Shown: positions 38,982-41,603 of the stretch, piece after piece | How the letters are laid out: the number at the start of each line of letters is the position of its first letter | Position numbering within the stretch: the first letter of the stretch is position 1 | Source: Arachnia propionica | GTDB lineage: Bacteria; Actinomycetota; Actinomycetes; Propionibacteriales; Propionibacteriaceae | Reading direction: 5' to 3' | Assembly (NCBI RefSeq): GCF_003932785.1 | Contig: NZ_RQYT01000001.1 | Span: forward strand, 1-64,000 | Length of the DNA: 64,000 nucleotides | Translations under genes and position numbers: made by a program | The notes under the pieces: generated by a model | What the model was told of the DNA's origin: nothing | Databases searched by the model: none | The model's input: only the letters and a program-made list of their open reading frames with translations

Positions 38982-39115
38982 CAAGGGCCGGACCGTGGTA
39001 GCCTCGTGACGGTGCCCGTGGGACCTCTGGGTGATTACCGAGCTTCCCTAGACTGGAATACCTTCCACATCACCCTGCTCCTCCCCGGGCACCCCGAATG
39101 TCTCCAGGAGGACCC

Positions 39116-40489
39116 ATGCGCAGCGCGGACGAGGTGGCCCGCGAGGATCTGTTGACCTTCCTCAACGCCGCCTTCGTCTCGACGGGGCAGGCCGAGTTCG
39201 CCTCGACGGCTGAGGAACAACGACTGGGCATCGACTTCCTCCACGAGTACGTTCGGGGCAACTACCGGCGGCTCTACGCGCGGTTGCTCGCCGTCGGCAT
39301 CAACGACTTCCACACGGCGGAGATCCTCCGCGGTCTCCTCGCGACGGGGCGAGAGACCCCTGAAGACTTCCGGGAGGAGGAGAACGCGCTGATCCGTGCC
39401 GGTGCCCGTCGCCTCCCGCCACAGCGGTTCTGGAAGCTCACCGCCAGGCTCCGCCGGGAGGGGGTGAACAACCGCCGGGCCCGAGCGATGATCCGGCACT
39501 GGTTCGACACGCATCCGGACCCGACCTTCCAGGCGGTGAAATACCGTCGCAAGGTGGCCGGGGCCTTCCGCCACGCCCACATCCATCCCGACGGGGAACT
39601 GGCCGAGTTCCTGTTCGGGGACCACCGTTCCCCGTTCGGGACCGAACTGCTCGAGACGTACCGTCAGGCGAGGTACAGCCAGCAGGCGGTGCTGCGGCTG
39701 CCCTACTCCGTTGCCCAGGGCCTCGCAGCGAAGCACGGCATGGCCCCCGAGACGCTGGCCTCCCGGATGAAGACCCGGCTCACGGACAAGGAACGTCTTC
39801 GGGTGGCTGGCCGCACCGAGGACGTGGAGATCCGTCCCGAACGGTTGTCGTTGACGGAACTCACGTCGTGGCTGCTCAGCCGGAAGGAACTCGACGAGCA
39901 GGCCGACCAGTGGCTGGACCGAGCCGCCACGGCGGTGCTGCACCGCAGCGGCCCACTGGCCCTGACGGGCCGGGTGGCCGCTGTGCTGGACAACTCGTTC
40001 TCGGCCTCGGCGTCGAGGGAGCGACGGGGGCGTCCCCTCGCCATCGCCTTCGCCGCGGACCGGCTGCTGCGACTCGGCCACGCCGACTACCGGGGCTTCT
40101 GGACCTCCCCGTTCGAGGGGAGGCCCCGTCCTGAGGGGCAGTCGAACCTGTCGGAGCGGCTGTTGGATGCCTTGGATTGGGGAGCGACGACGGTGCTGGT
40201 GATCTCGGATGGGGTGGAGAACGACCCTGCCGGGGCCTTCCGCAGCATCATGGCACGGCTCCCAGCCGAGGTGCAGGTGCTGCACCTCAACCCGGTGTTC
40301 GACCCGCAGCAGCTGGAGGTGGCGAACCTCACCACGCATGCCCGCGCACTGGGGCTGCATCGGGCGGAAGATCTGCCGACGGCCCTCGGGTTCGCCCGAT
40401 ACGTCGTCGGCGACGGGACACTCGCCGAACTGGAGGGGAACCTCGCAGGGCAGGTCCGTCGTTTCATCGAGGGAGGTCACGATGCGTGA
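39116..40489 (+). CDS. TROVE-like / von Willebrand A domain protein (Ro60-like)
   Basis: This encodes 457 residues from ATG 39116, four bases after AGGAGG; an ATG at 39098 lies before that site. The N-terminal 270 residues are helical with the pattern of the TROVE ring, including RARAMIRHWFDTHPDPTFQ and AVKYRRKVAGAFRHAHIHPD (compare the KYR...R..AH motif of Ro60 proteins). The C-terminal vWA domain has a metal-binding MIDAS: DNSFSAS near 292 (DxSxS) and VISDGVEND near 364. TROVE proteins bind small structured RNAs and misfolded RNA. It overlaps the next gene by 8 bases. A TROVE assignment is probable, not certain; the vWA is secure. Confidence 0.7.
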   Translation: MRSADEVAREDLLTFLNAAFVSTGQAEFASTAEEQRLGIDFLHEYVRGNYRRLYARLLAVGINDFHTAEILRGLLATGRETPEDFREEENALIRAGARRLPPQRFWKLTARLRREGVNNRRARAMIRHWFDTHPDPTFQAVKYRRKVAGAFRHAHIHPDGELAEFLFGDHRSPFGTELLETYRQARYSQQAVLRLPYSVAQGLAAKHGMAPETLASRMKTRLTDKERLRVAGRTEDVEIRPERLSLTELTSWLLSRKELDEQADQWLDRAATAVLHRSGPLALTGRVAAVLDNSFSASASRERRGRPLAIAFAADRLLRLGHADYRGFWTSPFEGRPRPEGQSNLSERLLDALDWGATTVLVISDGVENDPAGAFRSIMARLPAEVQVLHLNPVFDPQQLEVANLTTHARALGLHRAEDLPTALGFARYVVGDGTLAELEGNLAGQVRRFIEGGHDA

Positions 40490-41603
40490 GCTCGCAGCAC
40501 CGCTGTCCCTGACGGGGCTGACCCCGGCACCGTCCCAGGTGTGCGGTACGTTCCGACTTGTCCCGTTGCTGCGGGACCGGGACTGCGAGGACGTCCGGCT
40601 CGTCGACGCGGGATGGGAGCCGGGGAACCGTTTCGTCATCGACGGGGATCGGTTGAGCTTCGGTTTCGTCCCGCACGCCTACCATCTGGACTGGGGAATC
40701 GCCCTCGGCACCCAGGTGTTCAAGGACCCGAAGGATCGGGGTCGGAACTGGCTGGTCACGCATCGGGCTCGGAAGCGACTGTCGCCGGGCCGGTTGCGGT
40801 TCCTGCCCCAACACCTCGCCATCGAGGGGCTGCTCAGCATGCACTTCAACCCGCCGACGATCGCATGGCCGGAACTCTCGCAGACCTTCATGCGTGACGG
40901 TCTGGGCATGCGGATGGAGAGTTTCGAGCCCGGCACGGAGATCCCCGGTTTCGACACCGCGCTCAGGACCTTCGAGATCCATCCGCGACAGGTCGGGGTG
41001 CTTGTCTTCGTCTCCGACGCTCTCGCCGCGGCCTTCGTCGTTCCCTCTCCCCGGGACTATCGGAGACTGCACCTCGGACTGCTGGACAGCCTCTACTGCG
41101 ACCTCATGATCACCTACGCGTGCCACCATCCCACCCGGTGGATCGTGGATCCCGCTCCGCACTTCGAGGGCGCGAGCACCGTCACAGAGCTCCGGGAAGG
41201 ACTGGCCTCACTCCGAAGGGAGTGGGCCCAGGTGACCAACGAGGTGCTGCTGGGTGATCTGACGCACCGCGGGTTGCGCACCGAGACGATCTACTCGCTG
41301 CCCGGGATGCGACTGGAACGTTTCGTCACCTCACTGGAACTGGGGGCGGCCAACCACATCGGGGAGCGGATCCTGCGTGACGACGGAGAGGTGCTGCACC
41401 TCAACACACTGCGACTCACGGCGTCGCAGACCCGCCGCGCCCACCTGCTCTCCGTCCTCGGAGAGCACGACTGGCACCTCCCCTCCGCCGCCGAGGCCCT
41501 CCGCATCGACGTCCCCTCGGTCGTCGCGCGACTGGAGGCGCAGGGATTCGGTCATCTCATCAACCACAACTTCAGGGAACAGGCCGCCAAGGCACGTCGT
41601 TGA
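40482..41603 (+). CDS. Unrecognised partner of the TROVE/vWA protein with C-terminal HTH
   Basis: This encodes 373 residues from ATG 40482, inside the end of the preceding gene, with GGGAGG upstream. The protein is soluble. The first 280 residues are mixed alpha/beta with many Trp, Phe and His residues (DWGIALGTQVFKDPKDRG, LSMHFNPPTIAWPELSQTF). The last 50 residues form a Fis/HTH_8-like helix-turn-helix: HDWHLPSAAEALRIDVPSVV followed by ARLEAQGFGHLI. This layout loosely recalls the ARPP-2 proteins of actinobacteria, a tentative memory. The strict coupling says it works with the TROVE/vWA protein, perhaps as an RNA- or DNA-sensing partner. The 3' end overlaps modC by 32 bases, convergently. 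Confidence 0.6.
   Translation: MRELAAPLSLTGLTPAPSQVCGTFRLVPLLRDRDCEDVRLVDAGWEPGNRFVIDGDRLSFGFVPHAYHLDWGIALGTQVFKDPKDRGRNWLVTHRARKRLSPGRLRFLPQHLAIEGLLSMHFNPPTIAWPELSQTFMRDGLGMRMESFEPGTEIPGFDTALRTFEIHPRQVGVLVFVSDALAAAFVVPSPRDYRRLHLGLLDSLYCDLMITYACHHPTRWIVDPAPHFEGASTVTELREGLASLRREWAQVTNEVLLGDLTHRGLRTETIYSLPGMRLERFVTSLELGAANHIGERILRDDGEVLHLNTLRLTASQTRRAHLLSVLGEHDWHLPSAAEALRIDVPSVVARLEAQGFGHLINHNFREQAAKARR

Follow-up and report, generated by a model that had tools for sequence, protein, structure and literature searches.

A candidate Ro60/Y RNA-type locus with an ARPP-family partner in Arachnia propionica

What do two overlapping genes at positions 39,116 to 41,603 of a 64,000-nucleotide stretch of Arachnia propionica DNA (the window; contig NZ_RQYT01000001.1, positions 1 to 64,000, forward strand) encode, and does an RNA belong to the same system? 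A sequence-only reading had seen in the first product a TROVE-type helical ring joined to a von Willebrand factor A (vWA) domain, and in the second a partner other than the PNPase or RtcB beside which known bacterial Ro ribonucleoproteins (RNPs) lie (excerpts of PMC7790460 and PMC4726728), and had suggested a stress or conflict module that could sense damaged RNA. Our analysis points to a three-part RNP locus of the Ro60/Y RNA kind as the probable answer, comprising an RNA, a diverged Ro60-type protein, here termed V, and an ARPP-family protein, with the sequences of all three kept together across bacterial phyla. The features of the locus are as follows.

39011..39093, + strand: putative Y-RNA-like noncoding RNA, 83 nt (covariance model R1, covariation, no Rfam family)
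39116..40489, + strand: gene 1, V, a predicted diverged TROVE/Ro60-type protein of 457 residues (profile-profile comparison to Ro60, Foldseek)
39116..39955, + strand: predicted TROVE-like helical ring, V residues 1-280 (ring-only hhalign, invariant NNRR and KYR...H)
39956..40486, + strand: vWA domain, V residues 281-457 (metal ion-dependent adhesion site (MIDAS) motifs DNSFS, 292-296, and SDG, 364-366; vWA-only hhalign)
40482..41603, + strand: gene 2, ARPP-2 protein of 373 residues (Pfam PF22549, E 6e-80)
41430..41561, + strand: possible Fis-like helix-turn-helix (HTH), C-terminal in ARPP-2, bounds approximate (HTH_8 in 6 of 37 relatives, alignment, low-confidence model)

Both open reading frames are present as claimed, coupled on the + strand by an 8-base overlap, with AGGAGG immediately 5' of the ATG of the V gene and the RNA element ending 22 nt 5' of that gene. 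The TROVE-type motif noticed earlier is found with KYRRK at V residues 142-146, followed by H153 and H155, and the MIDAS described as intact is so, with D292-x-S294-x-S296 and D365. These MIDAS residues, along with K142, Y143, R144, and H153, show no variation across 66 aligned relatives (alignment A5, 66 of 87 loci picked by eye, with L077 excluded for one stop).

The kinship of V to Ro60 is borne out by profile-profile comparison with controls. A V profile built from 28 cellular and 13 phage sequences aligns to one of 30 Ro60 sequences at 97.4% (hhalign, E 1.3e-11); the alignment spans 287 columns, has the ring and the vWA domain in the same order, and places QAVKYRRK of V against QAVKYRQR of Ro60. 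The Ro60 set (A9) excludes L199 for two stops, with L202, L215, and other unpicked loci also outside it. Compared separately, the ring matches the Ro60 ring at 85% (score 48.5, with 60 column shuffles reaching at most 24.6), and the vWA domain matches that of Ro60 at 92% (score 46.6, with 60 shuffles reaching at most 22.1), whereas reversed profiles score 16.0 for the ring and 20.2 for the vWA, and cross-domain comparisons of ring with vWA score 15.0 and 13.4. The phage V set alone reaches 88% against Ro60 and the deeper cellular set with phage bridges 97%; no homology was seen when a shallow V alignment was set against just two Ro60-type sequences, and comparison with a mixed TROVE set gave a match confined to the vWA domain and the stretch around its start.

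Fold comparison supports the kinship weakly, with the nine top PDB matches of the V model (mean predicted local distance difference test, pLDDT, 66.6) all being Ro60 at E values of 5.6e-4 to 0.02 and template modelling (TM) scores of 0.23-0.40, one of them at E<=0.001, and the tenth match being unrelated at E 0.096 (Foldseek). Among viral models the second match of V is a Ro-like phage protein (E 4e-3), the first is nameless, and none reaches 0.001; the predictions for both V and ARPP-2 were made from seven-sequence alignments. Searches with hmmscan gave no support, with V matching nothing significantly in Pfam, NCBIfam, PADLOC, or PDB sequences when searched directly (the best Pfam hints being weak and including vWA), and with vWA_Ro60 matched by one of the 66 relatives (E 0.13). 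Taken together, the sequence comparisons indicate that V is a strongly diverged TROVE/Ro60 protein with a ring and a vWA domain.

One rival explanation is that V belongs to a vWA/helical chaperone-type module unconcerned with RNA, the RNA element being a mere regulator. Proteins with vWA domains near ADP-ribosylglycohydrolase systems are described as peptide-binding chaperones (excerpt of PMC9503650), and the only repeated Pfam domain hints in V are weak matches to CoxE-type vWA, in 5 of the 66 relatives (best 0.014). However, the homology of the ring by itself to Ro60, the Ro60 proteins heading the fold matches, and the close co-occurrence of the RNA with the gene pair all speak against such a module, which we regard as highly improbable.

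An ordinary Ro60-type TROVE protein is also encoded in the same genome (contig C14, 41910-43478; L216, L019), and so two Ro branches coexist there. The ordinary gene lies upstream of what we take, by reading, to be an enolase-like gene. Ordinary Ro60 proteins are likewise common in viral contigs, with 125 confirmed in IMG/VR, 80 of which are loci L136-L215.

The RNA was likewise anticipated, a Y-like RNA having been suggested near 38982-39115, and a structured element was found inside that stretch at 39011-39093, first seen as a shared element by reading the sequences upstream of V across phyla. Its predicted architecture comprises an 8-bp outer stem, a bulged pyrimidine, a GGGA/UCCC helix, an asymmetric internal loop, an inner stem, and a small apical hairpin. 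The alignment (A13) holds 54 of 76 elements pulled by pattern from 84 loci, the pattern having missed eight elements, five of which were later recovered fully, and one partly, by the covariance model R1. From these 54 copies 23 pairs are predicted, with changes on both sides in 18 of the 23, pairing in 95.7% of cells, and a covariation score of 0.540 against at most 0.103 for slid partners; none of 500 shuffles reaches the alignment on any of five measures, part of the covariation excess being expected as the structure was derived from the same alignment. All copies share GGGAC and UCCCC, and the bulged base after the outer helix (column 9) is C in 37 copies and T (U) in 17. Folding of the 116-nt window stretch gives -43.4 kcal/mol (z -2.3, equalled or bettered by 6 of 200 shuffles), which is modest alone. 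No family of Rfam 15 was matched at the gathering score at 11 cellular loci, nor above chance by the window copy and one cyanobacterial copy.

Searches with R1 place the element upstream of V, on the same strand, at 84 of 87 pair loci in seven bacterial lineages, with 91 copies in all, and with no match at E<=1 elsewhere in the 1.14 Mb searched. Fifty-four of the matched loci built the model, leaving 30 of 33 unseen loci matched, many of which are closely related to sequences in the model. The window copy, itself among the 54, scores 62 bits (E 4.2e-11) and is the sole match in its genome. At two of the three loci missed by R1 the available sequence is cut short: that of L040 begins within the element, leaving a partial match (E 0.19), and that of L043 starts near V, with an element near the end of another contig of its genome. 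In the genome of the third, L058 of Nostoc sp. 106C, the best-scoring copy of all (92 bits) stands by itself on a different contig, and the 10 kb of sequence examined there contain neither V nor ARPP-2. Across the 31 named genomes searched whole, the RNA was reported in 29 (28 single, one tandem double), the exceptions being the genomes of L040 and L064; L064 has a weak copy (41.7 bits) that the whole-genome search missed. Among 296 genomes of the class, where the filters were stricter than in the own-genome search, the RNA occurs in 8, ARPP-2 in 8, and both in 7 (Fisher p 1.7e-12). In the eighth RNA-bearing genome (G283, L245) the RNA is intact by the model and the V- and ARPP-2-like sequence lies in separate open frames, the pair there being decayed or misassembled.

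The same placement suits the main alternative to an RNP, in which the RNA, instead of being a free molecule, would act in cis as a leader, either a riboswitch or an autoregulatory site bound by V or by the ARPP-2 HTH. A leader would be expected where the element is seen, upstream of V on the same strand at 84 of 87 loci and at a median distance of 39 nt (72 loci), and it would fit both the likely HTH of cellular ARPP-2 proteins and the window, in which neither a promoter-like nor a terminator-like site was found near the RNA. The leader explanation is weakened, however, by the copy in trans, standing alone on another contig in Nostoc sp. 106C, and by the two tandem copies at seven loci, and a distance to V reaching 303 nt also sits poorly with it; we therefore consider it unlikely.

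The pairing of V with ARPP-2 is beyond chance, because 77 of the 80 best V loci have ARPP-2 downstream of V in the same orientation. These 80 are the best of 381 sites confirmed among named genomes, and the ones examined for neighbours and RNA. In the remaining three, ARPP-2 was not seen in ~6 kb of sequence at L066 and L079, and the stretch of L077 ends 0.2 kb past V. The two genes mostly adjoin, lying up to ~2 kb apart in some cyanobacteria, where the spacers hold repeats or unrelated sequence. By their genera, the 80 loci fall in Actinomycetota, Cyanobacteria, Myxococcota, Planctomycetota, Armatimonadota, Gammaproteobacteria, and Sericytochromatia. The nearest relatives among them are from Arachnia propionica and a Propionibacteriaceae bacterium (79% and 80% identity); a scan of the genome contigs with the single V protein as query found no relative. 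Seven class genomes other than that of the window carry ARPP-2, with a V homologue directly upstream in 6, the seventh (G153) having an ARPP-2-like frame with no V seen in the 5.5 kb examined. A diverged V with an ARPP partner also occurs in another actinobacterium (L236, G131), its V being possibly of a type between the cellular and phage types.

Neighbouring proteins were compared with Pfam in batches of 79 (A6) and 83 (A7), together 162 of 378 neighbours, and 129 (A11), with the 25 commonest families read. NACHT, EAD4, and NCC-H domains each occur in 4 of the 79 proteins of A6. In three genomes of one genus (L013, L014, and L015) the pair is adjoined by what, by reading, is presumably a glutamine-synthetase-like gene.

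The second protein proved more recognisable than first thought, the part beside its HTH having been called unrecognised: residues 8-272 belong to the named family ARPP-2 (PF22549; 268.7 bits against a gathering score of 27, E 6e-80). The Fis-like HTH proposed for its C-terminus is weakly supported, with HTH_8 matching 6 of 37 relatives (best E 0.0013) and the structure model placing helices from residue 314 at low confidence; the window protein itself is unmatched. These 37 relatives comprise 24 cellular ARPP-2 proteins and 13 phage proteins in which the HTH region is missing from the alignment, and Q19 is invariant in all of them by eye.

The pair extends, in diverged form, to phages. IMG/VR holds 17 distant relatives of V (best segments 22-26% identical) on contigs of 16-429 kb, and all 17 are followed on their own strand by a diverged partner (ARPP-2 profile, E 7e-10 to 0.003); 13 of the loci were taken as distinct, and in each of these the partner matches ARPP-1 (Pfam). 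R1 found no match upstream of phage V, its best anywhere being E 0.11, and a detector of Y-like elements found 7 upstream of the 13 genes against ~3.7 expected from shuffles, which is no proof. By reading, five of the 13 loci (L123, L125, L128, L131, and L133) have candidate elements, and the remaining eight have no clear one. In L123, L125, L131, and L133 a tRNA-like cloverleaf lies within a paired stem, recalling the tRNA-like head of YrlA, and two loci have repeat motifs, not expected by chance, upstream of V at the 5' side of predicted stem-loops, with three copies of CCGGAACTAG in L133 and three of a GACTGC-CGTCA motif in L128. A phage counterpart of the RNA element is suggested by these features, and suggested only. 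We claim no special link of the phage pair to tRNA genes: tRNAs are present in 13 of 13 loci (ARAGORN), but the contigs are rich in them (2-36 matches each).

Compared with known Ro systems, the locus is alike in plan and different in its parts. RYPER (Rsr-Y RNA-PNPase) of Deinococcus radiodurans likewise combines a Ro60-type protein with a Y RNA (excerpts of PMC4726728 and PMC7790460), but here V lies outside Pfam TROVE, Rfam holds no family for the RNA, and the neighbouring gene encodes ARPP-2. The rsr-yrlBA-rtcBA RNA repair operon of Salmonella likewise sets a Ro60-like gene beside Y-like RNAs (excerpt of PMC7790460), whereas RtcB is not among the neighbour families listed here (the 25 commonest of 84 and of 108), and, in contrast to Y RNAs of the YrlA kind, the cellular element has no tRNA match at 11 cellular loci. 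The expectation that the partner gene would differ from those in the bacterial Ro systems described so far is upheld. The position of a bacterial Y RNA gene near a Ro60-type gene recurs at 84 of the 87 loci. The vertebrate Ro60 site is an end-paired stem in which a seven-bp helix has one bulged C, with a bulge of three nt on the opposite side (excerpt of PMC4726728), to which the 8 bp, bulged C or U, 4 bp, and asymmetric internal loop of the element are similar in plan and not identical. The ADP-ribosylglycohydrolase/rhodanese-phosphatase systems share the ARPP domain (PF20208, PF22549) and typically form two-gene partnerships, with HIRAN, WYL, and deacetylase partners described in the excerpt of PMC9503650, in contrast to the Ro60 relative and RNA found here. 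The ROT/TROVE proteins of jumbo phages also have TROVE, reportedly with a tRNA-like partner, in large phages, and the excerpt of PMC7824862, by whose wording they are compared, names neither rhodanese nor ADP-ribosylglycohydrolase.

A Ro60-like ring beside an RNA whose lower stem partly resembles the Ro60 site suggests an RNP, in which the RNA would use its bulged lower stem to bind V, in the manner of Y RNAs with Ro60, and would gate or direct RNA uptake, while V would capture a substrate, for instance RNA that is misfolded or has been cut. ARPP-2 may then serve as the effector in place of PNPase or RtcB, perhaps by recognising a sugar or ADP-ribose group or by acting on one, and the HTH of cellular ARPP-2 could add a nucleic-acid contact or self-regulation. 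Several observations weigh against this proposal. Pfam TROVE (PF05731) matched none of the 66 V relatives at E<=1, and the fold evidence is weak, with a model pLDDT of 66.6 and TM scores of at most 0.40. No Rfam kinship of the element to known Y RNAs was found, its internal loop differs from the three-nucleotide bulge of vertebrate Y RNA, and its distance from V (4-303 nt, median 39, at 72 loci) makes a leader role possible. The ARPP-2 structure model is unusable (pLDDT 49), and alignments read by eye show no invariant cysteine across the 24 cellular ARPP-2 proteins, in contrast to the 13 phage ARPP-1 partners, in which one cysteine is kept. Judging from sequence, cellular ARPP-2 may bind without cutting, or may rely on other residues.

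The cysteine also bears on a finer version of the RNP reading, in which the ARPP protein would recognise or process ribose or ADP-ribose on RNA held by V. ARPP is described as probably enzymatic, with one cysteine and one glutamine conserved, and is proposed to act on ribose moieties from ADP-ribose (excerpt of PMC9503650), and the matching of ARPP-1 by the partners in all 13 distinct phage loci fits this. One pair neighbour matches ADP_ribosyl_GH, probably in L103, to which a looser motif search pointed after two others had found none. The V-free ARPP-1 loci have genes that, by their motifs, we take to resemble ADP-ribosylglycohydrolase, Nudix, and phosphatase genes, those in L233 and L234 including ADP-ribosylglycohydrolase-like proteins. 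However, ADP_ribosyl_GH occurs in just 1 of the 83 neighbours of A7 and is absent from the 25 families listed for A6 (79), and, because cellular ARPP-2 proteins lack an invariant cysteine, this version is weighed lower and seems doubtful to us. More broadly, we tentatively raise the possibility of a separate Ro RNP branch that has an RNA family of its own and an ARPP protein as partner. Bacteria and, in diverged form, large phages might use it to detect the ends of RNAs, or ribose/ADP-ribose marks that toxins or defence enzymes leave on RNA.

A literature search found no title or abstract opening on the V–ARPP-2 pair or its RNA. TROVE and Ro60 go unmentioned in the excerpt of PMC9503650, and in that of PMC7159879 'trove' appears only as an ordinary word in a reference. 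The protein pair may have been noticed earlier; the RNA is called new because it matches no Rfam 15 family and nothing in the literature search. For RNA biologists the locus offers a defined RNA-protein pair, from a Ro60 branch that is invisible to Pfam, accompanied by a conserved RNA outside Rfam 15, and spread over several phyla. It links Ro60-like RNA handling to ARPP, a family so far described in ADP-ribose settings, and, if the proposal is true, a Ro ring would here be joined to a partner of another kind.
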